A program made the position numbers and the translations under genes. From positions 94,625,882-94,689,881 of the forward strand of contig CAXKWD010000005.1 in NCBI GenBank assembly GCA_964059195.1: a stretch of 64,000 bases of DNA, read 5' to 3'. Below are positions 4,628 through 43,890 of the stretch, in pieces (the first letter of the stretch is position 1; the number at the start of each line of letters is the position of its first letter). The notes under the pieces were generated by a model. It did not search any database and was not told the origin of the DNA. It saw only the letters and a list, made by a program, of their open reading frames with translations. Origin of the DNA: Ectobius pallidus. Lineage: Eukaryota; Arthropoda; Insecta; Blattodea; Ectobiidae.

Positions 4628-4667
4628 TATAATATGAAGATTTAAAATATTTTATTAAACATTTCAG

Positions 4668-4885
4668 ATGTGCCGCCTGCCACCCCTATGGCACCTAGCT
4701 ACACTGCTTTGCAACAGCCAGCACCATCTGCTGCACCCGATGTCAACCAAGCTTCATTAGCTACGAGCAAGAATTTGTATGCCAATTTGAGCAACTACAA
4801 CACCGCAGCTCGAGGGTGGGGCTCTGGATTTGATTATTACAGGCCTGTCACATTCAATCCTAGTAAACTGGCCTACACTACATAA
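4668..4885 (+). CDS. Last coding exon, possibly a Zasp-like sarcomeric protein
   Basis: A 3' splice site (TTTCAG, ending at 4667) opens an exon that runs 72 codons to TAA at 4883-4885. The peptide is rich in Pro, Ala and Ser near its start, then reads [20 protein letters not shown] and ends in SKLAYTT. The aromatic C-terminal block is conserved-looking and unlike the surrounding sequence. It reminds me of C-terminal segments of insect Zasp or other myofibrillar proteins, but I cannot confirm this. No in-frame ATG is needed because this is an internal start of an exon. Upstream exons are outside the window or too short to recognise. AATAAA-like signals occur from about 4970. Confidence 0.6.
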
Positions 4886-6499: not shown

Positions 6500-6846
6500 C
6501 AGTAAAGTCCCGCTAATCCAGATCCTGCTTGTGCGGACATCTGTTAATCCAGACAGGACTTAAACAATAAATTTTAAATTTTAATCACAAAGATGTTTTG
6601 TTTCATTAAACCTACATCAGTTCATAGGTTAAAAACTTATGTTTACATTTACAGTTTCTACTAAAATTAATATTAAGATGTAGAAAAAGTTGTATATATG
6701 AAAAAAATCGATTTCTACAGTATCACCCATCTAAACCTTGTATTAAAGTACAATACATGCATTTTAAGGCAAATTCCATTCAATCCAGACTTTCAGTGAT
6801 CCGGACAAATCTGGTCTTATCTAATCTGGATTAGTGGGACTCAGCT
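6500..6846. mobile_element. Tigger/pogo-type MITE
   Basis: Left end CAGTAAAGTCCCGCTAATCC and right end GGATTAGTGGGACTCAGCTA are imperfect inverted repeats of the pogo/Tigger form. Internal copies of the motif occur at about 6780-6835. There is no coding capacity. A related fragment lies at 59461-59800. Confidence 0.65.
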
Positions 6847-11285: not shown

Positions 11286-12188
11286 ATTTTTAAAACATAT
11301 CTGTGTTTAGTTTGAGACATAATTCTTATTTAAACCGGAGTTTAAAGAGCTGGTACCGGTACAAAAGGGGAAAGTCCAGTCTACAAGGGATGGTTAGCCT
11401 GCACAGCTGTCGGTCGCAATTGTTTTGAAAATGACTGTAAATAAATTACCTTTCAAAATGATTTCAGAATAAGATATGAAGGTTACAGGGGAAGGAGTAA
11501 TTTCAAAAGATTAAAAGATATTCCAAAAATAATTTTTAAAATTTGAGTACTGAAAACCCAGACATATTAAATAAATAATGAATACATGTTCATACTAAAG
11601 TAACAATAATGTGTTTTATACACGTGGCGTGAGTATGAAGTTCTGAAATTAACTGAGAAATGTAAATAAAATCATCAAATACAATAAAATACACACATAT
11701 TATTAGGAAATATGTGGAAAATACCGTACTTTCTTTGTGTTATCATAACCCAAGTTTCATACAGAATCTTTTCTTATTAGAATGTTTAATTAAACATTCA
11801 TTACATTAATTACTGTATTGCTTATGAAAAAGAGACTCAAAATACAACTGAGCTTTCATCTCTTGCAGATTGCATTTCTTCTTAACAATCTAACACAATA
11901 ATTAGAACAGAATTAAATAATGAAATCTGGATAAACTTAATACCACATCTAAGAAATTAACACGCCAAGTTGTCACATGTGCAGTAAATGTCATTGTCAC
12001 TACTGACTTTCTGCCTTCATTTCCTGTGATGCATGGACTTTCTGCCTTCATAACCAGCACAGTGAAATTTAAACTGCTATTTTTCCCTTACCTTCCACAT
12101 GCTTTGCTAGTTTCAAAAACAATATTAAAAGATTACTAAATAGATAAGATGATCTTGATGTCTCAATTTCTGATTTTCATCGACCTTA
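11286..12188. other. Intronic non-coding DNA
   Basis: AT-rich sequence within CFAP96 intron 5, with no gene or bounded repeat recognised. Confidence 0.5.
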
Positions 12189-12350
12189 AGCTGTGTCTCC
12201 ATTGATATACATTTAACACCAACATGTCAATATTAACAAGTTGATATTGACATTTATATTGCAATTTCGCATTCCAATTGACTTGACATCAGTGGCGACT
12301 CCTGGTTTTTTAGTTGTGTAGGATGGTGTGAGTAGTTATGTATTGTTCAT

Positions 12351-12560
12351 GACCCCTGCGGTGGCTTACTGAATGCAACCCGCAATACAGGGGCAGCCAC
12401 CGTGTATTGCAGGGGCAGACCCCTGCAATACAAGGTGGCGGCGTAGGGGAAGGTGGCGCGTAGGGGAAGGTGGCTTAGTGGAGGGGGAGGTGGCTTAGAT
12501 GTCAGGGGTGGTTCAACTACCACAAAGTCTGGCCCCACCATTATTAGGCCCCCACACATC
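12351..12560. repeat. GC-rich terminal zone, left arm
   Basis: Unusually GC-rich for this window, with short repeats of GCAATACAGGGG, GTATTGCAGGGGCAGACCCC and GGTGGC. The GCAACCCGCAATACAGGGG motif recurs near the axis at 18957-18976. The same zone is mirrored at 25724-25933. Confidence 0.8.
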
Positions 12561-12984
12561 TCACGGTCATTTCCGATTCAGCCAGTGGTTATAACATTAG
12601 GATATTTCCCACTGCCCTTTGGCCACCTGGGTGCTTATTGATCATAGCTCTGGGTGCTAGCGCCCTTTGTAGAACAACGGCCTAAGTGTTTTGTGGAAAC
12701 TATGGGAATATATTTCGCTATCGGTAATTATTTGCGAGTTTGTAATATTTGCATGTCTCGCTACCGTAGCGGGGGGTCCAGATGCTGTCTGCTGGCTCGC
12801 GTGGCAGCCGCTCGTACGAAAATATCCCAGCGCAGCGGTGGTCCTGCTTGCACGCAATCGTCTTACATATGCATGTGTCGATGTTGCCGCACATGTCTAA
12901 TTATTTGTGATATAATATTATATTAGTAGTATAGGAACCTTTATACAGCGGCGACGCCGGACGACGCCTCTTCCAGACGCCTAG

Positions 12985-13548
12985 TTAGGCCCTTTGATCC
13001 GGAACGTCATGGTAGTCGATTCGAATAATGTAATTACGCCTTTATACACTAAGCTATTCCCGATTCATCCTGACGCATAGTTAGGCCGCTTGATCCGATC
13101 TAGTTAGGCCCTTTGATCCGGAACGTCATGGGAGTCGATTCGAGCAATGTAGTTGTGACCTTATACACTATGCTATTCCCGATTCATCTCGACACCTGTT
13201 ATTAGGCCCTTTGGACCGAGGAGACGTTATGGACGTCATGGTAGTCATTTCGAACAATGTAGTTACGCCATTTAGCACTATGTTGTCCATATTCATCCCA
13301 AAGACTGTAATTAGGCCCTTTGGACCAAGGAGGCGTTATGGACGTTAGGGTAGTCGATTCGAACAATGTAGTTACGCCTTTTCGCACTATGTTATCCATA
13401 TTCATCCCAAAGACTGTAATTAGGCCCTTTGGACCAAGGAGGCGTTTTCGGACGTCACGGTAGTCGTTTCGAACAATGTAGTTACGCCCTTTCGCACTAT
13501 GTTATCCATATTCATCCCGACACCTGTTATTAGGCCCTTTGGATAGTT
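12985..13548. repeat. Subterminal tandem repeats, left arm
   Basis: Five units of about 98-110 bp plus a partial sixth. Each begins TTAGGCCCTTTG and contains TAGTCGATTCGA, CAATGTAGTTACGCC and CCATATTCATCC or a close variant. The three inner units are more alike than the two outer ones. Such arrays may bind a replication or transposition protein; this is inference. Confidence 0.9.
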
Positions 13549-13760
13549 CAGAGTATGGGATACTATTGCTTCTTCTAAATGATGCTTAGTTTTTATTTTT
13601 TATATTATTATTATTATTATTGTAAAGTTATTATTAATTACATCATTATTAGTGAATAACAGAGTTTAATGACAGCTGCATACGTAATTTAAGATTTTTT
13701 AATACTATATTTAGCACTGTTTTCAAACTAAAATTAAGAAAAGTAGAATAGGCATACATA

Positions 13761-13814
13761 TGGACCTACGCAAAGCGTAGTGTAACAGGTGGACCTATGC
13801 AAAGCGTTTATAAT
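13761..13814 (+). promoter_or_regulatory. Repeated upstream motif and TATA-like box for the 167-aa gene
   Basis: GGACCTACGCAAAGCGTAG and its near-copy GGACCTATGCAAAGCGT lie in tandem, followed by TTATAAT at 13808-13814, about 45 bp before the ATG. A second TATATAA is at 13846-13852. This is the arrangement expected of a compact promoter. Mirrored at 24470-24523. Confidence 0.5.
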
Positions 13815-13855
13815 GTGAAAGTGTACGTGTGGCCTCATCAATTCATATATAAGGA

Positions 13856-14290
13856 ATGATACGTGCGAAGCTCAACAACAGTATGTCTTCTCAAGAACTA
13901 GTACGTCAACTATGGGAGGAGATCCCGGACTCCGCGTTTGCAGATATTATAATCCCAGACATGGAACCTGCGGTCATGGAAAGCTCATATACCATCAACG
14001 TGTACGATATTGGCGGTACTAAACTACGTACACAACAACATACAGTAACATTTATCACAGTCTATAGTGTTAATCAACAACACGAAGCAAAGGTTCAACT
14101 GTATCCATGTGGAAGACCAGAAGTGCGATGTCTTGAAGATGTAAGACATGACACTCAATCCCATTATGAAACATGTAACGGCGAAGAACATATAACAGCA
14201 TGTATAGATCCAGAGTTCCCATCGCCTGTAGAAATCTGGGGGAGGAACTGCTCACGCGACTGCAAAGTCTTTATCAAGCAATGTCAGAAG
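13856..14290 (+). CDS. Cys-rich 167-aa protein, exon 1, left arm
   Basis: ATG at 13856 opens 145 codons that stop being protein-like at a perfect donor, AAG|GTACGT, at 14290. Reading on through the donor gives only a low-complexity Phe/Ile tail. The peptide starts MIRAKLNNSMSSQELVRQLW, has a beta-rich middle (YTINVYDIGGTKL, HTVTFITVYS) and then nine or so cysteines, including CGRPEVRC and CSRDCKVFIKQC. I do not recognise the family. The gene faces the outward-reading cluster, so the two units converge with their poly(A) signals about 220 bp apart. The mirrored copy is at 23994-24428. Confidence 0.75.
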
Positions 14291-14663
14291 GTACGTACAT
14301 ATTTTTTATTGAAGTCACAGATTTTTATTATAGTGGTCTATCGTAATTTTATTTGTATTATTATTTATTTATTTTATTTTATTCTTTTCCTTAAAGTGTT
14401 TTTTTTCTTTTTTTTCAGAATTTTTATTTTATGATAAATCAGAGCTTTATTCACTGATGTATGCAAATTCTTCGAAGTCGATACCAAGCATCCTTTCACA
14501 TCAACATTTATCATATGATTTTGGTTTTACTATGTTTCAGTCTTTGAGGTTCTCCTCAGTTTTCAGAGTTTTATTCACCGATATATGTAAATTTTTCGAA
14601 GTGGTACTAAACACCCTAACACATCTACAATTATCATACGATTCTTGTTTTCCTTTGTTTCAG
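14291..14663 (+). other. Intron with a duplicated 3' splice region, left arm
   Basis: Runs from GTACGT to TTTGTTTCAG. Two diverged ~100-bp copies (about 14441-14541 and 14566-14663) each contain TTCACYGATRTATG, a TTCGAAGT block, a pyrimidine tract and a terminal TTTCAG. Only the second acceptor leads into an open exon ending in a stop with sensible composition. Confidence 0.7.
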
Positions 14664-14732
14664 ATCACTGAGAAGATGTTACGGAAATTTAAACAACAGG
14701 TGTTATGTTTAGACGCTGACGATGAATATTAA
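14664..14732 (+). CDS. Cys-rich 167-aa protein, exon 2, left arm
   Basis: Opens directly after TTTCAG in phase 0 with the donor of exon 1 and encodes ITEKMLRKFKQQVLCLDADD then EY and TAA. The basic stretch followed by an acidic end looks like a genuine C-terminus. AATAAA follows at 14774-14779. The splice join is predicted from sequence only. Confidence 0.65.
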   Translation: MTEKMLRKFKQQVLCLDADDEY

Positions 14733-14773
14733 TCGCAAGATTTTTTAAAAAATATTATGTATACAAAGTAAGA

Positions 14774-14779
14774 AATAAA
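14774..14779 (+). terminator. Poly(A) signal of the 167-aa gene, left arm
   Basis: AATAAA, 42 bp after the stop codon. Its mirrored copy is at 23505-23510. Confidence 0.6.
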
Positions 14780-14998
14780 TGTGTGATATAAAGGAAACCG
14801 GCGTAAAAATCATTTCAAACCGAGCTCTTACATTTTATGAATGAAAAAGTTCGGGTCATATCCTTAACCAAAACCCATAATCCCATAATTCCAACACGTG
14901 TCATAGGCCACAAGCATGTTCTATCTATTTTTTACAGGAAGCCGTTAGCCTTTTGGAAGGATTGTGTAAATAACAAACAGACAATGTTATGAATGAAT

Positions 14999-15499
14999 TT
15001 ATTTCAACTCATGATTACAAAACTCTTTAAAATTATGCCGTGCTTGCATCCAGAGTCTAAGCACCATTACGTTCTGCAGGGCACAGTTCATTCCCCGACG
15101 TGGGTGAAATAGGCACTTCACATTACAGTCTCTTAATCTGTCCAGCTTCTGTACACCAAGATCGTCCATGTTTATAACAGACCTCTGCAGTAGTTTTTCA
15201 AAAAATCTAGCCTTTTCTAGCCCCTTAGAATAAAGTATGTCTTCACACTGTAATACACTATCAAGAACAGGTTTCATCTCGTCGTAAGGTAAGTATCCAC
15301 TCTGCCATGGTATCCCATGCAGATACGATTCCGTATACCACTGGGATTTCACATCTGGATATACGTCTTTAGGCGGTCGCAGCACGAAATGTCCCATTCC
15401 GCCATCTTGTGATAATACAGCCACCTCTTTAGCCACGAATTCCTTGCAAGTTGACTGATAGCCCTGAACATCCAATATGATGAATTTCTGACATGACAT
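14999..15499 (-). CDS. RNase H-fold exonuclease-like ORF, left arm
   Basis: 166 codons, start MSCQKFIILDVQGYQSTCKE. The opening strand with an Asp (ILDVQG), a nearby KE, the HGIPW block, the KGLEKARFF block and a Cys/His end (CLFHPRRGMNCALQNVMVL) give the layout of a DEDD-type or related RNase H-like nuclease. The first motif reads D-x-Q, not D-x-E, so activity is uncertain. Proteins of this general pattern occur in many arthropod genomes with no assigned role. Its start overlaps the preceding ORF by 71 nt in another frame. An AATAAA overlaps the stop codon. Mirrored at 22785-23285. Confidence 0.65.
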   Translation of the reverse strand: MSCQKFIILDVQGYQSTCKEFVAKEVAVLSQDGGMGHFVLRPPKDVYPDVKSQWYTESYLHGIPWQSGYLPYDEMKPVLDSVLQCEDILYSKGLEKARFFEKLLQRSVINMDDLGVQKLDRLRDCNVKCLFHPRRGMNCALQNVMVLRLWMQARHNFKEFCNHELK

Positions 15500-15737
15500 T
15501 GGTGATGATGTTGGTCAGAGCAGTATACTCTACACAATGAGCGTGCAGGATTAAACAGTAGACCTTTGTGTTTGCAGGAATGTTGTTTGCTGCAGAAATT
15601 TCAACTCTGGTAGTACAGGTCCACGATTTAAGATCTTCGTTCTGCTTGCTGCAATCGATCACAAAGACTGGCGTGTGTTTTATGAAATCGCTCCTTTTAA
15701 GCAGTAGGCAGTATTTGCAGATGTTATATTTCACCAT
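15429..15737 (-). CDS. Unidentified Cys-rich 102-aa ORF, left arm
   Basis: Starts MVKYNICKYCLLLKRSDFIK with a C-x2-C pair, then FVIDCSKQNEDLKSWTCTT and a hydrophobic stretch VYCLILHAHCVEYTALTN. It begins eight bases after the stop of the previous ORF and its 3' end overlaps the next ORF by 71 nt. No family recognised; the Cys pairs suggest a zinc-binding protein. It may instead be joined to its neighbours by frameshifting or splicing. Confidence 0.55.
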   Translation of the reverse strand: MVKYNICKYCLLLKRSDFIKHTPVFVIDCSKQNEDLKSWTCTTRVEISAANNIPANTKVYCLILHAHCVEYTALTNIITNVMSEIHHIGCSGLSVNLQGIRG

Positions 15738-15745
15738 GCAGGAGG

Positions 15746-16195
15746 TCAGTATCGACGCGAATGTATTTTTAAAAGTTTACAGGAATAACAGTTTTTTATC
15801 ATTGGGGATGGTCCATCGAAATAACAATCGACGTAATGATTCTCACACCTCAAACACTGCTTTATAATTTCAAGCTCTTTTACATTTTCTGGAAGTCTAT
15901 CATAAACCCTATAAATAGTCCCAGCCGCGCATTCGGATAGAAACTCAGGATGCAACAATGCCAATTCTTCATCTGTGTGACTGATCAAGTGCATATTATG
16001 AAAGAACTTTATGATCGACCTCCACATCATATGCTCCATGACTAACGGAGTGATGAAACCCACCCTTTTCTTTATATAGTTGATATTATCCAGACGAACG
16101 CTATCGGTGAAACAAGACACTACACATCTTGTGGGATTGGGTTCGAGGTTTAGTTGAGCATTGCAGTTTATACGGTGGATGGCACAACCTTTGCA
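15746..16195 (-). CDS. Unidentified zinc-finger-like ORF, left arm
   Basis: The frame is open from 16195, giving about 149 codons, although a conventional ATG is lacking. The first 25 residues hold CKGCAIHRINC and PTRCVVSCF; the core is KRVGFITPLVMEHMMWRSII followed by FFHNMHL; the end holds LRCENHYVDC and NCYSCK. This pattern of paired cysteines around a helical core suggests a zinc-stabilised fold. The true 5' end may be an exon joined from upstream, since no ATG was found in frame. Mirrored at 22089-22538. Confidence 0.55.
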   Translation of the reverse strand, partial: CKGCAIHRINCNAQLNLEPNPTRCVVSCFTDSVRLDNINYIKKRVGFITPLVMEHMMWRSIIKFFHNMHLISHTDEELALLHPEFLSECAAGTIYRVYDRLPENVKELEIIKQCLRCENHYVDCYFDGPSPMIKNCYSCKLLKIHSRRY

Positions 16196-16422
16196 TTATT
16201 TTTAAGAAATAATATCTGAACCGCGAGACTGGAGAGTGAACGAGATGGAAAGAGGATCACTCCGACAGCACATCTGTTTCCTTAGCACAAAAAAAACTTT
16301 TCTTATTGCACAAATTTAATTTATCTCTTACCACACATGTAAGCATACTACTTAGTAATGGTGACGTTTTTCTTCTTCAACATATATCATAGCCATTTCT
16401 AGGATATTACAGATTCACAGAT

Positions 16423-16569
16423 TCACTTATACTTTGAGGCCATATCGTGATACTTTATTGTTGATGTGTTAGTAAATATACATTTCATCCTCAGCGATTT
16501 AATTACCCTTATTATATCCGGTGACGAGTACAGGTTATGAAGCTCGTAAGCAATTTCGCGTTTGCTCAT
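16423..16569 (-). CDS. 48-aa ORF overlapping the BED gene by ATGA, left arm
   Basis: Starts MSKREIAYELHNLYSSPDII and ends KYHDMASKYK. Its ATG shares bases with the TGA stop of the 398-aa ORF (ATGA). Such overlaps are common in compact viral and bacterial gene clusters and rare in animal nuclear genes. No family recognised. Mirrored at 21715-21861. Confidence 0.5.
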   Translation of the reverse strand: MSKREIAYELHNLYSSPDIIRVIKSLRMKCIFTNTSTIKYHDMASKYK

Positions 16570-17762
16570 TGTATCACGCCGCTTTCTCTTAACTCTGTTA
16601 TAATCTCCAATATTTCGTTGTTATGCGAGTGATTCCCCGCCTCAGATGATGCCACCAACAAACGAAGTCTATGAACCAATTCATTCGGGTCATCCCAATA
16701 CTTATAGTCTATTTTGTGATTCGCATGTAAGTCTTTCCACATGCCTGTACGGTGCGACGAAGCCTCATCGGATGCGTATGAATATCGTTCCTCCTCCTCT
16801 TCCGGAAATGAGTCTGACCATTGTTCATCCTCTTCCTCTTCCTCCTCCTCTTCATCTTCTTCTTCTTTACCCTCCTCTTCTGGAAATAATTTTTTAATGA
16901 TGTAATGATATTTTTGAGTATTGACTCTACGTACGTTTTCGCTCTCGTCGTAATTTTCTTTGTGAGCGCTAGTCTTCTCCAAAATCTCCTTATACGTGGT
17001 TAAGTCATAACGGTTGTATAAATCTTTATTTGGTTTACTTTTCGTTAGTAGTTCAAGTAGTCCAGGACGGCCGATATACCTCTCGTTACCGATATAAATG
17101 TTGTCGTTTTTAATGGTGACGGGAGATTTACCAATGGTGAATACCTGCCTATCGGGATTCCATTTTATTCCATAAACGTCATTAATATTTCTCGGTTTAA
17201 GCTCAACGAGTTTCTGGATGTAAGGTGCAGACACTTGCCCGTATAATTTTTCTAGCATATAGTTATAATGCTTCGGAGGAATTTGATCAGAGGGTTGATA
17301 TGATCCATATTCCATTTCTGGATCCCGTGATAGATGCTGATTTTTGTCTTCATTCAAGTTCACGATTTCTTCCAAGGGGCAGGTTATCGGATTTACAATA
17401 TCGCTAATCTCATGTTTCGACTGAAGCTCGGGTTTTCTTAATGTTAAATATTTTTTTCGTATAGAATTGCCATATATCACATTGTCTGACGATATATATT
17501 TATCTTGTACTCGTGGGAAAAGTTTCTGTGATTCATCCTTATGAACCATTATCAGATGCCTCTTCAGACCGGAAGTATTATGATTTTTCATTTTTATTTT
17601 GACTTTTGATCTTTCGCATAGTTTGCATAGACCGTAAGGTTGCTCACTACCATGAACTAGATCGAAAAATTCATTATATTTACTGTTTGTCTTCTCCCAC
17701 AACAGTTGCGATTGGGAGGATACTGCACTCTCACTACTTTGACCTATGTTCTCGCCACTCAT
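16566..17762 (-). CDS. 398-aa BED-finger protein with acidic tract, left arm
   Basis: An uninterrupted ORF from ATG at 17762. Residues about 20-75 form a BED-type zinc finger: YGLCKLCERSKVKIK with C-x2-C, then SGLKRHLIMVH with H-x4-H, a DNA-binding module common in hAT transposases and chromatin proteins. Residues about 165-275 are a globular region (PPKHYNYMLEKLYG, VYGIKWNPDRQVFTIG, YIGRPGLLELLTK) like an uncharacterised domain I associate with repeat-encoded arthropod proteins. A run of Glu/Asp at about 297-330 follows, then a helical tail. No DDE catalytic core is visible. A TATATAA lies about 155 bp upstream. It is the first gene of an outward cluster. Mirrored at 20522-21718. Confidence 0.85.
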   Translation of the reverse strand: MSGENIGQSSESAVSSQSQLLWEKTNSKYNEFFDLVHGSEQPYGLCKLCERSKVKIKMKNHNTSGLKRHLIMVHKDESQKLFPRVQDKYISSDNVIYGNSIRKKYLTLRKPELQSKHEISDIVNPITCPLEEIVNLNEDKNQHLSRDPEMEYGSYQPSDQIPPKHYNYMLEKLYGQVSAPYIQKLVELKPRNINDVYGIKWNPDRQVFTIGKSPVTIKNDNIYIGNERYIGRPGLLELLTKSKPNKDLYNRYDLTTYKEILEKTSAHKENYDESENVRRVNTQKYHYIIKKLFPEEEGKEEEDEEEEEEEEDEQWSDSFPEEEEERYSYASDEASSHRTGMWKDLHANHKIDYKYWDDPNELVHRLRLLVASSEAGNHSHNNEILEIITELRESGVIQ

Positions 17763-17916
17763 TTTGTAACCTTACCTCCACAGCTCCAATGTTGATCAGC
17801 AACTAACTGTATTTACAACACATCAAGTCTTTATTAAGTCAAAAATCTCGTAGCGTCCAAAAAGGTCAAACCTCAGGTTTTAGACAAGACATCGCATCAT
17901 TTTGGAGTCTTACAGG

Positions 17917-17923
17917 TTATATA
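17917..17923 (-). promoter_or_regulatory. TATA box of the outward cluster, left arm
   Basis: TATATAA on the minus strand, about 155 bp upstream of the 398-aa ORF. Mirrored at 20361-20367. Confidence 0.5.
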
Positions 17924-18042
17924 TCACATGAATGGTCTTTATCTCGATCTGAATATCGTTATCTCGATCTCAATCTCAATCTCGTTATCTCGGTGTAGGT
18001 GTTGACGTTGGTTTCTGCCTAGAAAAAAAGTCAGTCCAGATC

Positions 18043-18262
18043 CTACAAGAACAAGAACAAGAACAAGAAATAGGACAAGAACAAGAAATAGGACAAGAAC
18101 AAGAACAAGAACAACAAAAAGGACAAGAACAAGAACAAGAAATAGGACAAGAACAAGAACAAGAACAAGAAATAGGATAAGAACAAGAACAAGAACAAGA
18201 AATAGGACAAGAACAAGAACAAGAACAAGACAAGAACAAGAACAAGAACAAGAACAAGAATT
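18043..18262. repeat. (CAAGAA)n hexanucleotide array, left arm
   Basis: Tandem CAAGAA units interspersed with AATAGGA variants. It produces Phe-Leu and Ser-Cys repeat ORFs on the minus strand that are repeat translation, not genes. Mirrored at 20022-20241. Confidence 0.95.
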
Positions 18263-18395
18263 CTACTGAAACTCTCAACTATTACTCATGACCCAACTTA
18301 TAGAGTAGATCATATTATATCACAACTTCACATGCAGAATTAAAGTTCATTACACAATTTGATTTACATGTTTTGCGCTTTTTATTTGGTGGTTA

Positions 18396-18494
18396 GTCCT
18401 TGTTCTCGATCTCGTCTCGGTCTCGGTCTCGTTCTCGGTCTCGTCTCGGTCTACTTCTCGGTCTACTTCTCTTTATAACTCTCGTTCTTGGTCC
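18396..18494. repeat. CTCGGT-type array, left arm
   Basis: Imperfect repeats of TCTCGGTCTCG and CTACTTCTCGGT. Mirrored at 19790-19888. Confidence 0.85.
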
Positions 18495-18828
18495 ACTTCT
18501 CGGCATCAATCTTAAAAAAACTGGTCTTATGTATTTACCACAAGAACCAGAACAAGAACAACAACATAGCCATTATAGACATGTCTGCTTAAGGATTTGG
18601 AATGATGTGATACATATTATAACGAGAAACTATATAAAACAGACGGCTCAGGTTTGCAGACTCTAAAATTTCATAAGTCATCACTATGAATATTCTATCT
18701 GACTAGGACATGTACATATGGAACATGGAAAACCTGTACATTGGCATATATCTTTTCTTTTTATTGCATCCATCACCCATTATTCATATCCCAACTTATA
18801 GCGGAAGACATATTATATCACAGCTTTG

Positions 18829-18868
18829 GTTAGGTTAGTTTAGGTTATGTTAGGTTAGGTTAGGTTAG
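18829..18868. repeat. TTAGG-like (insect telomere-type) run, left arm
   Basis: About eight GGTTA units with small variations. TTAGG is the usual insect telomere repeat, though short interstitial runs are also common. It is mirrored on the other arm at 19416-19455, about 270 bp from the axis. Confidence 0.85.
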
Positions 18869-18979
18869 CAGGATATTTTAAAATTATTTCTACATTGATG
18901 AAAAGTTTAAGTTCCTTGGCACATTTCACCATTGACTGCTAAGGTGGGATACTGATGCAACCCCGCAATACAGGGGACC

Positions 18980-19103
18980 GATATTGACCAGCCCAGACTG
19001 ATATTGACCAACCCCAGACTGATATTGACCAGTCCCAGACTGATATTGACCAGCCCCAGACTGATATTGACCAGCCCCAGACCGATATTGACCAACCCCA
19101 GAC
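18980..19103. repeat. 21-bp tandem repeats beside the axis, left arm (6 units)
   Basis: Units GATATTGACCAGCCCCAGACT with point changes, one of them 20 bp. Six units here against five on the right arm; this 21-bp difference is the largest visible mismatch between arms. Confidence 0.92.
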
Positions 19104-19201
19104 AGATTTTTTCACTAACATTCATTATCGTCATCCTCTAAGTGATTTTCCATAGTTCATATGGAAAATGAGGATGACAATGAATGTTAGTGAAAAAATC
19201 T
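19104..19201. other. Axis of the palindrome with a small central hairpin
   Basis: A 9-bp stem ATTTTCCAT / ATGGAAAAT (19145-19153 and 19161-19169) encloses a 7-bp loop AGTTCAT. On its left are six bases (TAAGTG) and a further three (GAT or equivalent) that are absent on the right. This asymmetry shows that the right arm is not a copy of the left produced by reading the same strand twice. Confidence 0.85.
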
Positions 19202-19304
19202 GTCTGGGGTTGGTCAATATCAGTCTGGGGCTGGTCAATATCAGTCTGGGACTGGTCAATATCAGTCTGGGGTTGGTCAATATCAGTCTGGGCTGGTCAA
19301 TATC
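19202..19304. repeat. 21-bp tandem repeats beside the axis, right arm (5 units)
   Basis: Reverse complement of the left array, one unit shorter. Confidence 0.92.
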
Positions 19305-19415
19305 GGTCCCCTGTATTGCGGGGTTGCATCAGTATCCCACCTTAGCAGTCAATGGTGAAATGTGCCAAGGAACTTAAACTTTTCATCAATGTAGAAATAA
19401 TTTTAAAATATCCTG

Positions 19416-19455
19416 CTAACCTAACCTAACCTAACATAACCTAAACTAACCTAAC
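19416..19455. repeat. CCTAA-type (TTAGG complement) run, right arm
   Basis: Mirror of the run at 18829-18868, identical in sequence. Confidence 0.85.
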
Positions 19456-19789
19456 CAAAGCTGTGATATAATATGTCTTCCGCTATAAGTTGGGATATGA
19501 ATAATGGGTGATGGATGCAATAAAAAGAAAAGATATATGCCAATGTACAGGTTTTCCATGTTCCATATGTACATGTCCTAGTCAGATAGAATATTCATAG
19601 TGATGACTTATGAAATTTTAGAGTCTGCAAACCTGAGCCGTCTGTTTTATATAGTTTCTCGTTATAATATGTATCACATCATTCCAAATCCTTAAGCAGA
19701 CATGTCTATAATGGCTATGTTGTTGTTCTTGTTCTGGTTCTTGTGGTAAATACATAAGACCAGTTTTTTTAAGATTGATGCCGAGAAGT

Positions 19790-19888
19790 GGACCAAGAAC
19801 GAGAGTTATAAAGAGAAGTAGACCGAGAAGTAGACCGAGACGAGACCGAGAACGAGACCGAGACCGAGACGAGATCGAGAACAAGGAC
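19790..19888. repeat. ACCGAG-type array, right arm
   Basis: Mirror of 18396-18494. Confidence 0.85.
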
Positions 19889-20021
19889 TAACCACCAAAT
19901 AAAAAGCGCAAAACATGTAAATCAAATTGTGTAATGAACTTTAATTCTGCATGTGAAGTTGTGATATAATATGATCTACTCTATAAGTTGGGTCATGAGT
20001 AATAGTTGAGAGTTTCAGTAG

Positions 20022-20241
20022 AATTCTTGTTCTTGTTCTTGTTCTTGTTCTTGTCTTGTTCTTGTTCTTGTTCTTGTCCTATTTCTTGTTCTTGTTCTTG
20101 TTCTTATCCTATTTCTTGTTCTTGTTCTTGTTCTTGTCCTATTTCTTGTTCTTGTTCTTGTCCTTTTTGTTGTTCTTGTTCTTGTTCTTGTCCTATTTCT
20201 TGTTCTTGTCCTATTTCTTGTTCTTGTTCTTGTTCTTGTAG
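20022..20241. repeat. (TTCTTG)n hexanucleotide array, right arm
   Basis: Mirror of 18043-18262. Same unit order, including the single TTTTTGTTG variant, so even this unstable array has stayed identical between arms. Confidence 0.95.
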
Positions 20242-20360
20242 GATCTGGACTGACTTTTTTTCTAGGCAGAAACCAACGTCAACACCTACACCGAGATAAC
20301 GAGATTGAGATTGAGATCGAGATAACGATATTCAGATCGAGATAAAGACCATTCATGTGA

Positions 20361-20367
20361 TATATAA
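20361..20367 (+). promoter_or_regulatory. TATA box of the outward cluster, right arm
   Basis: TATATAA, 155 bp before the ATG at 20522. The two cluster promoters face away from each other across the 2.8-kb central repeat zone. Confidence 0.5.
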
Positions 20368-20521
20368 CCTGTAAGACTCCAAAATGATGCGATGTCTTGT
20401 CTAAAACCTGAGGTTTGACCTTTTTGGACGCTACGAGATTTTTGACTTAATAAAGACTTGATGTGTTGTAAATACAGTTAGTTGCTGATCAACATTGGAG
20501 CTGTGGAGGTAAGGTTACAAA

Positions 20522-21718
20522 ATGAGTGGCGAGAACATAGGTCAAAGTAGTGAGAGTGCAGTATCCTCCCAATCGCAACTGTTGTGGGAGAAGACAAACA
20601 GTAAATATAATGAATTTTTCGATCTAGTTCATGGTAGTGAGCAACCTTACGGTCTATGCAAACTATGCGAAAGATCAAAAGTCAAAATAAAAATGAAAAA
20701 TCATAATACTTCCGGTCTGAAGAGGCATCTGATAATGGTTCATAAGGATGAATCACAGAAACTTTTCCCACGAGTACAAGATAAATATATATCGTCAGAC
20801 AATGTGATATATGGCAATTCTATACGAAAAAAATATTTAACATTAAGAAAACCCGAGCTTCAGTCGAAACATGAGATTAGCGATATTGTAAATCCGATAA
20901 CCTGCCCCTTGGAAGAAATCGTGAACTTGAATGAAGACAAAAATCAGCATCTATCACGGGATCCAGAAATGGAATATGGATCATATCAACCCTCTGATCA
21001 AATTCCTCCGAAGCATTATAACTATATGCTAGAAAAATTATACGGGCAAGTGTCTGCACCTTACATCCAGAAACTCGTTGAGCTTAAACCGAGAAATATT
21101 AATGACGTTTATGGAATAAAATGGAATCCCGATAGGCAGGTATTCACCATTGGTAAATCTCCCGTCACCATTAAAAACGACAACATTTATATCGGTAACG
21201 AGAGGTATATCGGCCGTCCTGGACTACTTGAACTACTAACGAAAAGTAAACCAAATAAAGATTTATACAACCGTTATGACTTAACCACGTATAAGGAGAT
21301 TTTGGAGAAGACTAGCGCTCACAAAGAAAATTACGACGAGAGCGAAAACGTACGTAGAGTCAATACTCAAAAATATCATTACATCATTAAAAAATTATTT
21401 CCAGAAGAGGAGGGTAAAGAAGAAGAAGATGAAGAGGAGGAGGAAGAGGAAGAGGATGAACAATGGTCAGACTCATTTCCGGAAGAGGAGGAGGAACGAT
21501 ATTCATACGCATCCGATGAGGCTTCGTCGCACCGTACAGGCATGTGGAAAGACTTACATGCGAATCACAAAATAGACTATAAGTATTGGGATGACCCGAA
21601 TGAATTGGTTCATAGACTTCGTTTGTTGGTGGCATCATCTGAGGCGGGGAATCACTCGCATAACAACGAAATATTGGAGATTATAACAGAGTTAAGAGAA
21701 AGCGGCGTGATACAATGA
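20522..21718 (+). CDS. 398-aa BED-finger protein with acidic tract, right arm
   Basis: Encodes a protein identical to the left-arm copy (16566-17762): BED finger, central uncharacterised domain, Glu/Asp-rich run, helical tail. It ends GVIQ followed by TGA, whose bases overlap the next ATG. Both copies are intact, so neither has had time to decay or both are being maintained. Confidence 0.85.
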   Translation: MSGENIGQSSESAVSSQSQLLWEKTNSKYNEFFDLVHGSEQPYGLCKLCERSKVKIKMKNHNTSGLKRHLIMVHKDESQKLFPRVQDKYISSDNVIYGNSIRKKYLTLRKPELQSKHEISDIVNPITCPLEEIVNLNEDKNQHLSRDPEMEYGSYQPSDQIPPKHYNYMLEKLYGQVSAPYIQKLVELKPRNINDVYGIKWNPDRQVFTIGKSPVTIKNDNIYIGNERYIGRPGLLELLTKSKPNKDLYNRYDLTTYKEILEKTSAHKENYDESENVRRVNTQKYHYIIKKLFPEEEGKEEEDEEEEEEEEDEQWSDSFPEEEEERYSYASDEASSHRTGMWKDLHANHKIDYKYWDDPNELVHRLRLLVASSEAGNHSHNNEILEIITELRESGVIQ

Positions 21719-21861
21719 GCAAACGCGAAATTGCTTACGAGCTTCATAACCTGTACTCGTCACCGGATATAATAAGGGTAATTAAATCGCTGAGGATGAA
21801 ATGTATATTTACTAACACATCAACAATAAAGTATCACGATATGGCCTCAAAGTATAAGTGA
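21715..21861 (+). CDS. 48-aa ORF overlapping the BED gene by ATGA, right arm
   Basis: Identical to 16423-16569. Starts within the stop codon of the 398-aa ORF and ends with TGA at 21859-21861. The short length keeps confidence moderate. Confidence 0.5.
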   Translation: MSKREIAYELHNLYSSPDIIRVIKSLRMKCIFTNTSTIKYHDMASKYK

Positions 21862-22088
21862 ATCTGTGAATCTGTAATATCCTAGAAATGGCTATGATAT
21901 ATGTTGAAGAAGAAAAACGTCACCATTACTAAGTAGTATGCTTACATGTGTGGTAAGAGATAAATTAAATTTGTGCAATAAGAAAAGTTTTTTTTGTGCT
22001 AAGGAAACAGATGTGCTGTCGGAGTGATCCTCTTTCCATCTCGTTCACTCTCCAGTCTCGCGGTTCAGATATTATTTCTTAAAAATAA

Positions 22089-22538
22089 TGCAAAGGTTGT
22101 GCCATCCACCGTATAAACTGCAATGCTCAACTAAACCTCGAACCCAATCCCACAAGATGTGTAGTGTCTTGTTTCACCGATAGCGTTCGTCTGGATAATA
22201 TCAACTATATAAAGAAAAGGGTGGGTTTCATCACTCCGTTAGTCATGGAGCATATGATGTGGAGGTCGATCATAAAGTTCTTTCATAATATGCACTTGAT
22301 CAGTCACACAGATGAAGAATTGGCATTGTTGCATCCTGAGTTTCTATCCGAATGCGCGGCTGGGACTATTTATAGGGTTTATGATAGACTTCCAGAAAAT
22401 GTAAAAGAGCTTGAAATTATAAAGCAGTGTTTGAGGTGTGAGAATCATTACGTCGATTGTTATTTCGATGGACCATCCCCAATGATAAAAAACTGTTATT
22501 CCTGTAAACTTTTAAAAATACATTCGCGTCGATACTGA
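22089..22538 (+). CDS. Unidentified zinc-finger-like ORF, right arm
   Basis: Identical to the left-arm copy. Open from 22089 to TGA at 22536-22538. The first possible start in frame that looks usable is a GTG at 22164, so the real 5' end is undetermined. Confidence 0.55.
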   Translation, partial: CKGCAIHRINCNAQLNLEPNPTRCVVSCFTDSVRLDNINYIKKRVGFITPLVMEHMMWRSIIKFFHNMHLISHTDEELALLHPEFLSECAAGTIYRVYDRLPENVKELEIIKQCLRCENHYVDCYFDGPSPMIKNCYSCKLLKIHSRRY

Positions 22539-22546
22539 CCTCCTGC

Positions 22547-22855
22547 ATGGTGAAATATAACATCTGCAAATACTGCCTACTGCTTAAAAGGAGCGATTTC
22601 ATAAAACACACGCCAGTCTTTGTGATCGATTGCAGCAAGCAGAACGAAGATCTTAAATCGTGGACCTGTACTACCAGAGTTGAAATTTCTGCAGCAAACA
22701 ACATTCCTGCAAACACAAAGGTCTACTGTTTAATCCTGCACGCTCATTGTGTAGAGTATACTGCTCTGACCAACATCATCACCAATGTCATGTCAGAAAT
22801 TCATCATATTGGATGTTCAGGGCTATCAGTCAACTTGCAAGGAATTCGTGGCTAA
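22547..22855 (+). CDS. Unidentified Cys-rich 102-aa ORF, right arm
   Basis: Identical to the left-arm copy. The frame is open upstream only to 22508, so it overlaps the previous ORF slightly and could be reached by frameshifting as well as by its own ATG. Confidence 0.55.
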   Translation: MVKYNICKYCLLLKRSDFIKHTPVFVIDCSKQNEDLKSWTCTTRVEISAANNIPANTKVYCLILHAHCVEYTALTNIITNVMSEIHHIGCSGLSVNLQGIRG

Positions 22856-23285
22856 AGAGGTGGCTGTATTATCACAAGATGGCGGAATGGGACATTTCGT
22901 GCTGCGACCGCCTAAAGACGTATATCCAGATGTGAAATCCCAGTGGTATACGGAATCGTATCTGCATGGGATACCATGGCAGAGTGGATACTTACCTTAC
23001 GACGAGATGAAACCTGTTCTTGATAGTGTATTACAGTGTGAAGACATACTTTATTCTAAGGGGCTAGAAAAGGCTAGATTTTTTGAAAAACTACTGCAGA
23101 GGTCTGTTATAAACATGGACGATCTTGGTGTACAGAAGCTGGACAGATTAAGAGACTGTAATGTGAAGTGCCTATTTCACCCACGTCGGGGAATGAACTG
23201 TGCCCTGCAGAACGTAATGGTGCTTAGACTCTGGATGCAAGCACGGCATAATTTTAAAGAGTTTTGTAATCATGAGTTGAAATAA
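22785..23285 (+). CDS. RNase H-fold exonuclease-like ORF, right arm
   Basis: Identical to 14999-15499. It is in the same frame as the ORF at 22089-22538 and overlaps the ORF at 22547-22855 by 71 nt. The AATAAA at 23281-23286 overlaps its stop codon and probably ends the outward transcript. Confidence 0.65.
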   Translation: MSCQKFIILDVQGYQSTCKEFVAKEVAVLSQDGGMGHFVLRPPKDVYPDVKSQWYTESYLHGIPWQSGYLPYDEMKPVLDSVLQCEDILYSKGLEKARFFEKLLQRSVINMDDLGVQKLDRLRDCNVKCLFHPRRGMNCALQNVMVLRLWMQARHNFKEFCNHELK

Positions 23286-23504
23286 ATTCATTCATAACAT
23301 TGTCTGTTTGTTATTTACACAATCCTTCCAAAAGGCTAACGGCTTCCTGTAAAAAATAGATAGAACATGCTTGTGGCCTATGACACGTGTTGGAATTATG
23401 GGATTATGGGTTTTGGTTAAGGATATGACCCGAACTTTTTCATTCATAAAATGTAAGAGCTCGGTTTGAAATGATTTTTACGCCGGTTTCCTTTATATCA
23501 CACA

Positions 23505-23510
23505 TTTATT
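23505..23510 (-). terminator. Poly(A) signal of the 167-aa gene, right arm
   Basis: Mirror of 14774-14779; about 220 bp from the poly(A) signal of the converging cluster. Confidence 0.6.
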
Positions 23511-23551
23511 TCTTACTTTGTATACATAATATTTTTTAAAAAATCTTGCGA

Positions 23552-23620
23552 TTAATATTCATCGTCAGCGTCTAAACATAACACCTGTTGTTTAAATTTC
23601 CGTAACATCTTCTCAGTGAT
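23552..23620 (-). CDS. Cys-rich 167-aa protein, exon 2, right arm
   Basis: Mirror of 14664-14732; identical 22 residues and stop. Confidence 0.65.
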   Translation of the reverse strand: MTEKMLRKFKQQVLCLDADDEY

Positions 23621-23993
23621 CTGAAACAAAGGAAAACAAGAATCGTATGATAATTGTAGATGTGTTAGGGTGTTTAGTACCACTTCGAAAAATTTACATA
23701 TATCGGTGAATAAAACTCTGAAAACTGAGGAGAACCTCAAAGACTGAAACATAGTAAAACCAAAATCATATGATAAATGTTGATGTGAAAGGATGCTTGG
23801 TATCGACTTCGAAGAATTTGCATACATCAGTGAATAAAGCTCTGATTTATCATAAAATAAAAATTCTGAAAAAAAAGAAAAAAAACACTTTAAGGAAAAG
23901 AATAAAATAAAATAAATAAATAATAATACAAATAAAATTACGATAGACCACTATAATAAAAATCTGTGACTTCAATAAAAAATATGTACGTAC

Positions 23994-24428
23994 CTTCTGA
24001 CATTGCTTGATAAAGACTTTGCAGTCGCGTGAGCAGTTCCTCCCCCAGATTTCTACAGGCGATGGGAACTCTGGATCTATACATGCTGTTATATGTTCTT
24101 CGCCGTTACATGTTTCATAATGGGATTGAGTGTCATGTCTTACATCTTCAAGACATCGCACTTCTGGTCTTCCACATGGATACAGTTGAACCTTTGCTTC
24201 GTGTTGTTGATTAACACTATAGACTGTGATAAATGTTACTGTATGTTGTTGTGTACGTAGTTTAGTACCGCCAATATCGTACACGTTGATGGTATATGAG
24301 CTTTCCATGACCGCAGGTTCCATGTCTGGGATTATAATATCTGCAAACGCGGAGTCCGGGATCTCCTCCCATAGTTGACGTACTAGTTCTTGAGAAGACA
24401 TACTGTTGTTGAGCTTCGCACGTATCAT
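23994..24428 (-). CDS. Cys-rich 167-aa protein, exon 1, right arm
   Basis: Mirror of 13856-14290; identical 145 residues and the same donor site. The intron between this and exon 2 also keeps its duplicated acceptor region. Confidence 0.75.
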
Positions 24429-24469
24429 TCCTTATATATGAATTGATGAGGCCACACGTACACTTTCAC

Positions 24470-24523
24470 ATTATAAACGCTTTGCATAGGTCCACCTGTT
24501 ACACTACGCTTTGCGTAGGTCCA
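24470..24523 (-). promoter_or_regulatory. Repeated upstream motif and TATA-like box, right arm
   Basis: Mirror of 13761-13814. Confidence 0.5.
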
Positions 24524-24735
24524 TATGTATGCCTATTCTACTTTTCTTAATTTTAGTTTGAAAACAGTGCTAAATATAGTATTAAAAAATCTTAAATTAC
24601 GTATGCAGCTGTCATTAAACTCTGTTATTCACTAATAATGATGTAATTAATAATAACTTTACAATAATAATAATAATAATATAAAAAATAAAAACTAAGC
24701 ATCATTTAGAAGAAGCAATAGTATCCCATACTCTG

Positions 24736-25299
24736 AACTATCCAAAGGGCCTAATAACAGGTGTCGGGATGAATATGGATAACATAGTGCGAAAGGGCGT
24801 AACTACATTGTTCGAAACGACTACCGTGACGTCCGAAAACGCCTCCTTGGTCCAAAGGGCCTAATTACAGTCTTTGGGATGAATATGGATAACATAGTGC
24901 GAAAAGGCGTAACTACATTGTTCGAATCGACTACCCTAACGTCCATAACGCCTCCTTGGTCCAAAGGGCCTAATTACAGTCTTTGGGATGAATATGGACA
25001 ACATAGTGCTAAATGGCGTAACTACATTGTTCGAAATGACTACCATGACGTCCATAACGTCTCCTCGGTCCAAAGGGCCTAATAACAGGTGTCGAGATGA
25101 ATCGGGAATAGCATAGTGTATAAGGTCACAACTACATTGCTCGAATCGACTCCCATGACGTTCCGGATCAAAGGGCCTAACTAGATCGGATCAAGCGGCC
25201 TAACTATGCGTCAGGATGAATCGGGAATAGCTTAGTGTATAAAGGCGTAATTACATTATTCGAATCGACTACCATGACGTTCCGGATCAAAGGGCCTAA
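24736..25299. repeat. Subterminal tandem repeats, right arm
   Basis: Mirror of 12985-13548; same number and order of units. Confidence 0.9.
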
Positions 25300-25723
25300 C
25301 TAGGCGTCTGGAAGAGGCGTCGTCCGGCGTCGCCGCTGTATAAAGGTTCCTATACTACTAATATAATATTATATCACAAATAATTAGACATGTGCGGCAA
25401 CATCGACACATGCATATGTAAGACGATTGCGTGCAAGCAGGACCACCGCTGCGCTGGGATATTTTCGTACGAGCGGCTGCCACGCGAGCCAGCAGACAGC
25501 ATCTGGACCCCCCGCTACGGTAGCGAGACATGCAAATATTACAAACTCGCAAATAATTACCGATAGCGAAATATATTCCCATAGTTTCCACAAAACACTT
25601 AGGCCGTTGTTCTACAAAGGGCGCTAGCACCCAGAGCTATGATCAATAAGCACCCAGGTGGCCAAAGGGCAGTGGGAAATATCCTAATGTTATAACCACT
25701 GGCTGAATCGGAAATGACCGTGA

Positions 25724-25933
25724 GATGTGTGGGGGCCTAATAATGGTGGGGCCAGACTTTGTGGTAGTTGAACCACCCCTGACATCTAAGCCACCTCCCC
25801 CTCCACTAAGCCACCTTCCCCTACGCGCCACCTTCCCCTACGCCGCCACCTTGTATTGCAGGGGTCTGCCCCTGCAATACACGGTGGCTGCCCCTGTATT
25901 GCGGGTTGCATTCAGTAAGCCACCGCAGGGGTC
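25724..25933. repeat. GC-rich terminal zone, right arm
   Basis: Mirror of 12351-12560, ending at the CATAACTACT terminus. Confidence 0.8.
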
Positions 25934-25972
25934 ATGAACAATACATAACTACTGGTGTGGAGAGCGAATTAA

Positions 25973-26193: not shown

Positions 26194-27347
26194 TTAATAA
26201 TAGCTAGGCCTATAATATATACCAAGAAATGAAATAAATAAATATTAATAAAAATATGATCATTCCCCTCTTAGAAAACAAGCTATCGAACGTGAGGAAG
26301 GACTGTACTGTAAGACGTCCTCAACTTCTTCCATATGAAACTGGCTTCTCACAACATTTCCCTTCCCCGCCTCCCCCTTCACATGCCACAGAGATCTAAC
26401 AACGGCATGGACTGCGTAACACCAACACTGAGGACATCCTCGCAAATACCAACCTGCTCAACACAGAACCGCTAACTTCCTTCCCGAGTGCTCTACAATA
26501 ACGCTGTTTTGTCATTTTATTGTTTTAATTTTGACAATGAATGCTAGTAAACATTATGTAGATGAATTATGAAGTGTAGGATGATCCTCACATCCTATAT
26601 GGAATAATCGCCACTGCTTGACATGCAAACCCAGCGTGTTGCACTTAACATTTTCAGATGTTAATTTGTTTTCCAGAGAAAATGGACAACATGTCAAGTC
26701 AATTGAGTAGTTGGTCGATATCGGCTTTGTTTCGGGAATTTCCGGGAAACAAAAAGCGATCGCCAGCTTAATCGGCTTTGGTTCGGGAATTTCCGTGTAA
26801 ACAAAAAGCAGTCGACAGCTTCCTCAATATTGCTGGCATCTATTTTGTATTATGTGAGTATTTGGTATATCAGTGTTCTAAATAGTATTGCATCTACTTT
26901 TAAAATTATTTTTTATGACATACTTCATTGTTGAAAAATGTGATAGTTATTTTGAAAAGATCAAGACATCTGTACAAAATTAGTATTTAAGAAAGTCATA
27001 GACAGTTAACAAGAAGATAATAACGAGTATATAAAACTACTCTCATTTTGTAATGTTGGCTGCCCTCTTCAGAGGCGTTTTCTTTTTGAATGTTATTTAT
27101 TACTCATTAATTTCTGTTCATAACCGCACCAACCCATGTTAACCTATAACACTGTAGTGGAGACAGACAAACCACTTGACTTGTATACGTCAACAAGTTG
27201 ATGATAAACATTTAACATAAGTTAAGTGCAACATGTTGGTGTTAAATGTATATCAATGGAGACGCAGCTTTATGCCTTCTTCCCTAGTACCCTCCATATA
27301 ATACATTTAACAAAATGAGAATGCAGGTAGTACAAAAAACCACATAC

Positions 27348-30902: not shown

Positions 30903-31333
30903 GACCGTGTAAATAGTACTGATCAATGCAACTGTGGTGAATGTGTTTTTCAGCGATTCATAATGAATGTTTCTGCTGTTCTGAAAGTGTTATGATAAGG
31001 GAAGTGCTGACTGCATTACATTCTCATAATTCCCTTCGTTCTGTTGTATTAAATAGGGACACATTGAACACTGCTAGGCCCCTTATGATGGTGAGAGCTG
31101 AATCCAATTTTGAAAGGGAACAGTTACGAGTAGCGAACAATAGGAACATGCGTTATGTAGCTTACAGACAATTCGTCTACTGGATTAATTCTTGGAAGCC
31201 CTTCGGAAAAGGCAATAGAAAAATCATACCTTCATGCATAGTTAAACAGATTAGGGACGAATACCCTGAGCCTAACAAAGAGTACAGACAATTTCAACCT
31301 GCTGACGGAAGAGATATTTCGTATTTTGATTAA
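30903..31333 (+). pseudogene. P2X7-like C-terminal zinc-domain protein, frame-broken
   Basis: The frame starting near 30903 gives STDQCNCGECV; a one-base shift then continues in the 30941-31333 frame with NECFCCSES, NRNMRYVAYRQFVYWINSW and IPSCIVKQIRDEYPE. The order CxCGxC, CxCC, N-x2-YR-x-AYRQF-x2-W and IPSCxVxxIR is that of the cytosolic domain of P2X7 receptors, which also occurs alone in many invertebrate, often transposon-linked, proteins. The frame break near the start argues for decay. Confidence 0.65.
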
Positions 31334-43850: not shown

Positions 43851-43890
43851 ACAATGATCTGTGGTTCATGCTTATATATCTATCTTGAAT
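43832..43890 (+). repeat. Right copy of the inverted repeat flanking the RTE fragment
   Basis: Reverse complement of 42863-42921; see that entry. Confidence 0.75.

Follow-up and report, generated by a model that had tools for sequence, protein, structure and literature searches.

The 64,000-nucleotide stretch of Ectobius pallidus DNA analysed here (assembly GCA_964059195.1, contig CAXKWD010000005.1, positions 94,625,882 to 94,689,881 of the forward strand; hereafter the window) contains a palindromic element of 13,623 bp, flanked by a 6-bp target-site duplication (TSD), whose terminal inverted repeats span the whole element. It is probably a satellite of Mavericks, namely a non-autonomous, virus-derived element that is copied and inserted in trans by them and whose arms are mended or recopied in a snap-back hairpin. 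This reading is supported by the existence of a palindrome family sharing one centre, by AGTAGT ends, by 6-bp TSDs, by two conserved genes, and by arms that are alike within most copies while the copies themselves differ.

The palindrome and its family

Over 6,743 bp the left arm (12331-19073) matches the reverse complement of the right arm (19211-25953) without a single mismatch, at a coordinate sum of 38284 throughout; the stem expected by chance in 64 kb is about 16 bp according to a rough formula. The inner 137 bp (19074-19210) are unpaired in the register of the arms; in a gapped alignment the palindrome continues through them, with 21 + 3 + 6 extra bases on the left side, as far as an innermost dyad made of a 10-bp stem and a 5-nt loop. 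A first-pass annotation, made from the letters alone, had described a 13.6-kb palindrome with this constant coordinate sum and with hexanucleotide arrays that are the same in both arms, and both statements were confirmed by the arm alignment. The TSD GGTGTG at the exact ends, the Maverick-type end motif and the adintovirus-type gene presented below were not mentioned there. The parts of the palindrome are as follows (mirror positions lie in the right arm):

12325..12330 (no strand): left TSD, GGTGTG, at the exact palindrome end
12331..19073 (+): left arm, a perfect inverted copy of the right arm; starts with AGTAGT
12360..12393 (+): subterminal motif with ACTGAATGCAACCCGCAATACAGGGG; mirror 25891-25924
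13123..13543 (+): subterminal 109-bp tandem repeats, left arm; mirror 24741-25161
18045..18260 (+): hexanucleotide array, left arm; mirror 20024-20239
18828..18868 (+): degenerate TTAGG-type (arthropod telomere-like) array of about 8 units, left arm, near the centre; mirror 19416-19456
18943..18976 (+): second copy of the subterminal motif, at the inner arm end, in the same orientation (88.6%); mirror 19308-19341
18976..19107 (+): 21-bp tandem array left of the centre, 1 unit longer than its mirror 19198-19308
19074..19210 (no strand): centre, paired only with gaps; 21-, 3- and 6-nt extras on the left side
19145..19169 (+): dyad centre ATTTTCCATA[GTTCA]TATGGAAAAT
19211..25953 (-): right arm; ends with ACTACT
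23621-23845: 123-bp tandem repeat, right arm
25954..25959 (no strand): right TSD, GGTGTG, at the exact palindrome end

The insect's own assembly (2.12 Gb, 410 contigs) was searched with the longest gene of the arms, an open reading frame (ORF) of 398 codons; the first look yielded 1,124 candidates, of which the best 40 received a score. Thirty-eight of these 40 matches form 19 inverted pairs with starts 3.9-4.0 kb apart, and all 19 pairs as well as both unpaired ORFs have a centre at the expected position; when one of the unpaired ORFs was read across its centre, the opposite arm was found to follow at 99.8%. The exact 25-bp centre is present 72 times in the genome (38 forward, 34 reverse; control 0), which rules out a one-off defective genome. 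No solo-arm copy occurs among the best 40 candidates, older or partial copies possibly being different, and single-arm progenitor insertions were rejected on this count. A head-to-head dimer of monomers with inverted ends was also rejected: the inner copy of the subterminal motif is oriented like the outer one, and the arm therefore does not end in inverted repeats.

These results bear on the origin proposed in the first-pass annotation. Its view of a recently fixed inverted duplication, taken as a single local event, does not agree with a family that has a shared centre and separate TSDs. Palindromes with different flanks, which it had suggested looking for, were found at other loci, and the outcome it had set against its own view, with all other copies being single arms, turned out the opposite way, each of the 40 scored matches lying beside a centre. 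From its idea of an integrated head-to-head dimer of a 6.8-kb hairpin replicon, the integrated palindrome, the arms kept alike and, as the best reading, the hairpin stage are retained; a dimer is possible, but none of the scored matches is single-arm.

Eleven copies were compared in detail, namely that of the window (W) and ten of the 18 other pairs: all seven outside the 's' group, which consists of pairs with identical score, and three of the 11 within it (C8s, C1s1 and C1s2). Loop and stem are identical in all eleven, with the centre in one orientation in seven copies and in the other in four. The same 9-nt central pattern is seen in seven copies, the other four aligning differently there.

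Several features of the family were observed besides. The central ~400 bp resembles a miniature of the element ends, the subterminal motif being repeated at the inner arm end. At C7:83554500-83559500 two s-type palindromes stand tail to tail, joined via truncated arms, of which the sequence read contains 2,625 and 2,176 bp, and separated by 200 bp; other s copies occur in pairs 18-44 kb apart; such tail-to-tail or closely paired copies possibly represent concatemers or local rearrangement. Doubled centres 32-59 bp apart, which look like an expanded palindrome middle, are present at C1:97295347/97295406, C3:16102031/16102073, C6:58481725/58481757 and C152:99904/99963.

Ends, insertion and concerted evolution of the arms

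The window element has the ends AGTAGT and ACTACT, and a 6-bp match at the separation of its TSDs was obtained at only 13 of 10,000 trial positions within the window. Across the copies, the end motif is AGTAGT in 10 of 11 and AGTAGG in C3. A perfect 6-bp TSD flanks nine of the 11 copies, eight of them with AGTAGT ends and the ninth being C3, and the nine are all different (GGTGTG, AAAATT, AGTGAA, TGCTAC, ATTAAT, CCAGCT, AACATA, GTTAGG and TCAATG); five of them were found from the projected ends and the other four by locating the end motif itself. End motifs of the type (AG)3//(CT)3 and (AGT)2//(ACT)2 together with perfect 6-bp duplications are among the criteria for vertebrate Mavericks in the pertinent sections of PMC8097293. 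The observed/expected ratio of CpG reaches 0.91 in the arm, against 0.47 and 0.56 for the two flanks, and is uneven from kb to kb, some flank stretches matching the level of the element; such values would fit a recent insertion into a genome depleted of CpG.

The foldback transposons FB and Galileo likewise have inverted repeats of great length that contain tandem repeats, and a transposon of this Drosophila kind with acquired viral genes would thus explain the partly tandemly repeated arms. Their target duplications are, however, 9 and 7 bp long and their transposases are of another kind, whereas the present element has 6-bp TSDs, Maverick-type ends and no transposase match over the cut-off in the scanned arm ORFs. 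A foldback origin is accordingly very improbable.

Substitutions between arms were counted over approximately 6,050 aligned sites, at arm positions 600-6,650. They are absent from eight of the 11 copies (W, C7, C4, C1a, C3, C8s, C1s1 and C1s2), with a single one in C6, five in C2 and 32 in C9. Arm-arm insertions or deletions (indels) outside the inner stretch number four in C9 and three in C2, and none was seen in the remaining nine. Over the same sites the copies differ from one another by 0.00-2.16% and fall into four groups: W, C9, C7 and C4; C2, C6 and C1a; C3 on its own; and the 's' copies. Since the arm differences are smaller than those between groups, the arms have been reset, rather than diverging within an inherited palindrome. 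Near the centre, arm differences consist of a 21-nt unit in W, a 21-nt indel and three substitutions in C4, two substitutions in C3, one in C1a and several in C9. The arms of each copy evolve in concert, and the reset is weaker near the centre.

Two copies deserve separate description. At four of the five differing sites of C2, the left arm has the base of C1a and the right arm that of C6, C1a and C6 each being alike in both arms at these sites; a 7-column stretch next to an indel holds three of these four sites, which may reflect a single event. C2 thus has the look of a hetero-palindrome that is still unresolved. The differences of C9 are concentrated in a patch close to the tandem repeat of 123 bp that mirrors 23621-23845, and a changed repeat may account for part of it; one further difference at the patch edge is private to the left arm.

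An inverted chimera created by reads or assembly would likewise yield perfect arm identity. The flanks of the palindrome are unequal, though, target duplications varying between copies sit on the exact ends, the same palindrome and centre recur at other loci with other flanks (the exact centre at 72 places), and the arms differ in C9 and C2; an assembly artefact is consequently unlikely as the source of the palindrome, to the point of being negligible. Consensus polishing could have flattened a few arm differences, C9 and C2 showing that the assembly was able to retain them.

Formation of a fresh dimer at each insertion should also be considered, from a 6.8-kb replicon that is protein-primed at one end, closed by a hairpin at the other and copied round that hairpin; the arms would then be alike from the outset. 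Such a process would produce the one fixed centre of all 11 copies, sequence just outside the 10-bp stem that is unlike on its two sides, as it is in 11 of 11, like a hairpin telomere, and arms whose identity, in most copies, fails only near the loop. No single-arm insertion occurs among the 40 scored ORF matches, however, and the two-allele arms of C2 and the one-arm patch of C9 would need change after insertion, so that we regard fresh dimers as unlikely.

It is similarly doubtful that the element is a Maverick-derived palindrome whose arms have been kept alike after insertion by chromosomal gene conversion, as in sex-chromosome palindromes. Conversion is in line with the zero arm substitutions of eight copies, and a loss of identity near the centre is likewise expected from it. 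Yet C9 retains a 26-substitution patch in one arm and C2 its five substitutions and three indels; these differences persist, and post-insertion conversion was therefore not a quick sweep. The high CpG ratio suggests that there was too little time for much of it.

Several points have to be set against a Maverick-assisted element with hairpin-mended arms. Chromosomal gene conversion could produce the same arm identity. Homogenisation is not absolute, a single ~450-bp patch of C9 containing 26 of its 32 arm differences as changes private to the right arm, and the outer 600 bp of the arms were excluded from the arm-arm substitution count. The copies C8s and C1s2 have unlike ends, and no TSD was found for these two of the 11. 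The three compared 's' copies are identical over the counted stretch, and part of the family may thus spread otherwise, for example by duplication of chromosome segments. Finally, scoring the best 40 of the 1,124 candidates over-represents young copies.

Genes of the arms and features of the flanks

Each arm carries one copy of the following genes and gene fragments:

13856..14434 (+): 192-codon ORF, left copy
14999..15499 (-): 166-codon ORF, left copy, identical to the right copy
15429..15776 (-): capsid-gene fragment, left copy, mirror of the right copy
15746..16120 (-): 124-codon ORF, left copy
16566..17762 (-): 398-codon ORF, left copy, identical to the right copy
20522..21718 (+): 398-codon ORF, right copy; DUF8207 (PF26634), with an N-terminal BED-like zinc finger below the Pfam cut-off
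22164..22538 (+): 124-codon ORF, right copy
22508..22855 (+): fragment of a double-jelly-roll capsid gene (PF21738), right copy; E 7.3e-14
22785..23285 (+): 166-codon ORF, right copy; exonuclease-like (DEDD-type fold, low-confidence model)
23850..24428 (-): 192-codon ORF, right copy, reading inward from the end; without a Pfam family over the cut-off

A search of the protein collection gave 56 homologues of the 398-codon ORF, of which 54 are labelled DUF8207 (PF26634) by precomputed annotation, the Pfam scan used here giving no DUF8207 match even for the homologue P0001. The top three are 46-48% identical to it, and the matches include homologues from wasp, ant and beetle as well as acintoc3 of the Megastigmus wasp adintovirus (P0016; 30% identity). 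An open frame of 401 codons was not reached in any of 300 shuffles of the arm, the longest shuffled frame having 206. None of 12 aligned homologues clearly matches the N-terminal ~95 residues, which resemble a BED zinc finger, with an E-value of 0.097 that is below the Pfam cut-off. The N-terminus of another DUF8207 homologue, P0053, looks FLYWCH-finger-like by eye, without a Pfam match; taken with the BED-like region, it hints that DNA-binding fingers have been fused to DUF8207 repeatedly.

For the 166-codon ORF two homologues were found (52-53% identity). The AlphaFold model of its product has a mean predicted local distance difference test score (pLDDT) of 43, and Foldseek gave no match at E 0.001; many of the top matches are proteins that we take to be DEDD exonucleases, and the product may, with low confidence, be described as exonuclease-like. 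The capsid-gene fragment corresponds to the C-terminal 71 of the 316 positions of PF21738, and is located upstream of the start of the 166-codon ORF and overlapping it. Homologues of the 124-codon ORF were sought and none was found.

The integrity of the frames was examined in the left arms of eight of the 11 copies (C9, C1s1 and C1s2 left out). The 398- and 166-codon frames are open in all eight, the former varying in length by multiples of three only and the latter not at all; the 124-codon frame is frameshifted in two (C3 and C8s), and the length of the 192-codon frame is not a multiple of three in five. The six-ORF unit of the first-pass annotation is therefore upheld as regards its 398- and 166-codon members, the 124- and 192-codon ORFs being disrupted in some copies and a further stretch representing only the capsid fragment. 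The ratio of nonsynonymous to synonymous substitution (dN/dS), pooled over four group representatives, was 0.60 for the 398-codon gene, with few changes, and 0.20 for the 166-codon gene; the values come from pairwise counts with shared branches and are indicative only. Divergence of the 166-codon gene between groups is far above that of its surroundings, with a dS of up to 0.14, a sign that this gene was exchanged with another lineage.

The Pfam scan covered 32 of the 41 stop-to-stop frames of at least 60 codons in the arm, the other nine being located within the tandem and hexanucleotide arrays or overlapping them. The capsid fragment was the sole match over the curated cut-off; no polymerase, integrase, ATPase or protease was found in the scanned frames, nor a complete major capsid gene, an NS1-type or protein-primed replication gene such as a parvovirus- or bidnavirus-like replicon would have, or any parvovirus family. 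With no polymerase or integrase found, the element is considered non-autonomous. Phage records gave no match, PHROGs nothing significant, and a sequence search of the PDB nothing convincing; a scan of a genome-contig collection was empty. Scans of viral contigs with the 398-residue ORF, two alignments, the capsid fragment and a 26-base terminal motif were also empty, and as the adintovirus protein P0016 itself found nothing there, that collection is uninformative.

The gene content has to be weighed together with the centre when a parvovirus-kind rolling-hairpin replicon, unrelated to Mavericks, is considered. Its imperfect hairpin with asymmetric bulges would resemble the centre found here, and the two s-type palindromes standing tail to tail at C7:83.55 Mb would also be expected. 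That junction, however, joins truncated arms; moreover, AGTAGT ends, 6-bp TSDs, DUF8207 and the capsid fragment belong to the Maverick/adintovirus world, and the scanned arm ORFs are devoid of matches to parvovirus families, all of which makes such a replicon hardly credible.

Outside the palindrome and in a different register, a 40-bp inverted repeat (97.5%) occupies 12188-12227 and 27231-27270; the palindromic element may have landed inside a resident element of ~1.46 kb. The remaining matches in the flank are:

30941-31330: ORF with a P2RX7_C domain
34918-35271: Mos1-type helix-turn-helix fragment
43026-43865: reverse-transcriptase fragment
44051-44123: tRNA match
58839-59204: reverse-transcriptase fragment

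Proposed replication and relation to known systems

According to the favoured reading, replication of the element would be primed by protein at the AGTAGT ends, with the machinery supplied in trans by Maverick/Polinton elements, whose integrase would also carry out the insertion. Repeated end motifs permit jumping-back of protein-primed replication, as stated in the sections of PMC8097293 on vertebrate Mavericks. Because each strand is self-complementary, the displaced strand, or a nascent strand turning at the centre, could fold into a 6.8-kb hairpin, the open end of which would be a functional origin. Two routes to identical arms may be envisaged. In the first, mismatches between the arms would be exposed in the hairpin and then repaired, which requires mismatch repair there; in the second, the nascent strand, once past the centre, would fold back and copy its own arm. 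By either route the reset would spare only the loop and the adjoining one or two hundred bases and make everything else identical, as is observed. The second route accounts better for the zone round the centre, and no choice is made between the two.

Possible helpers were sought through the protein-primed polymerase family PF03175: of 1,705 candidates, 75 were scored, which yielded 151 matches, and none of 14 control genomes matched. The matches listed all exceed the cut-off, and many of them fall in frames that run for ~1,376-1,515 codons without a stop. These abundant polymerases are candidate helpers only; the end motif and TSD of the palindromic element fit the Maverick type.

With Mavericks/Polintons the element shares the AGTAGT/ACTACT ends, the 6-bp TSD and the capsid-gene fragment, and its 13.6 kb falls within the 12,723-24,620 bp reported for intact vertebrate Mavericks in the sections of PMC8097293 concerned with them. 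It differs from them in its inverted repeats, which at 6.7 kb are more than four times the longest given there (46-1,447 bp), in the doubling of all coding capacity within the repeats, and in that polymerase, integrase, ATPase and protease were not found in the scanned frames. The DUF8207 protein, related to acintoc3 of the wasp adintovirus, is a link to the adintoviruses; the palindromic layout, and a scan in which neither polymerase nor integrase nor a complete capsid gene was found, set the element apart from them, as does the BED-like region preceding DUF8207. The element is not classed as an autonomous Maverick or adintovirus because the genes for replication and integration were sought in the scanned frames and not found.

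Palindromic genomes are also formed by defective adenoviruses, such as SYREC of adenovirus 12, in which replication is protein-primed and one end is doubled as an inverted repeat, both ends being functional. Unlike these, the palindromes described here constitute an inherited, inserted, multi-copy family with conserved genes of its own. The invertron plasmids of fungal mitochondria, as treated in the relevant passages of PMC1864894, have large terminal inverted repeats, protein priming and proposed snap-back or panhandle intermediates; in contrast to the present element, their repeats are confined to the ends and they encode their own polymerases. No palindromic, concertedly evolving relative of Mavericks was found in the open-licence literature searched.

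Rather tentatively, the element may be viewed as a Maverick satellite that is diploid in one molecule. Its genome would be its own inverted repeat, and the hairpin formed in each round of replication would compare and reset both gene copies. The palindrome would at the same time bring a 6.8-kb gene set to 13.6 kb, a length that may be required by a Maverick capsid, and the BED-DUF8207 and exonuclease-like proteins would act on the ends or on the hairpin.

Whether present-day animal Mavericks replicate linearly by protein priming is, in our judgement, an open question. A family with concertedly evolving arms would be an indirect record of single-stranded snap-back replication, and the arm differences of each copy could serve as a gauge of the efficiency of the snap-back step, which makes the family a natural test object. 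The family further suggests that, for a mobile element, a genome palindromic throughout need not be just a by-product but can be a heritable lifestyle.

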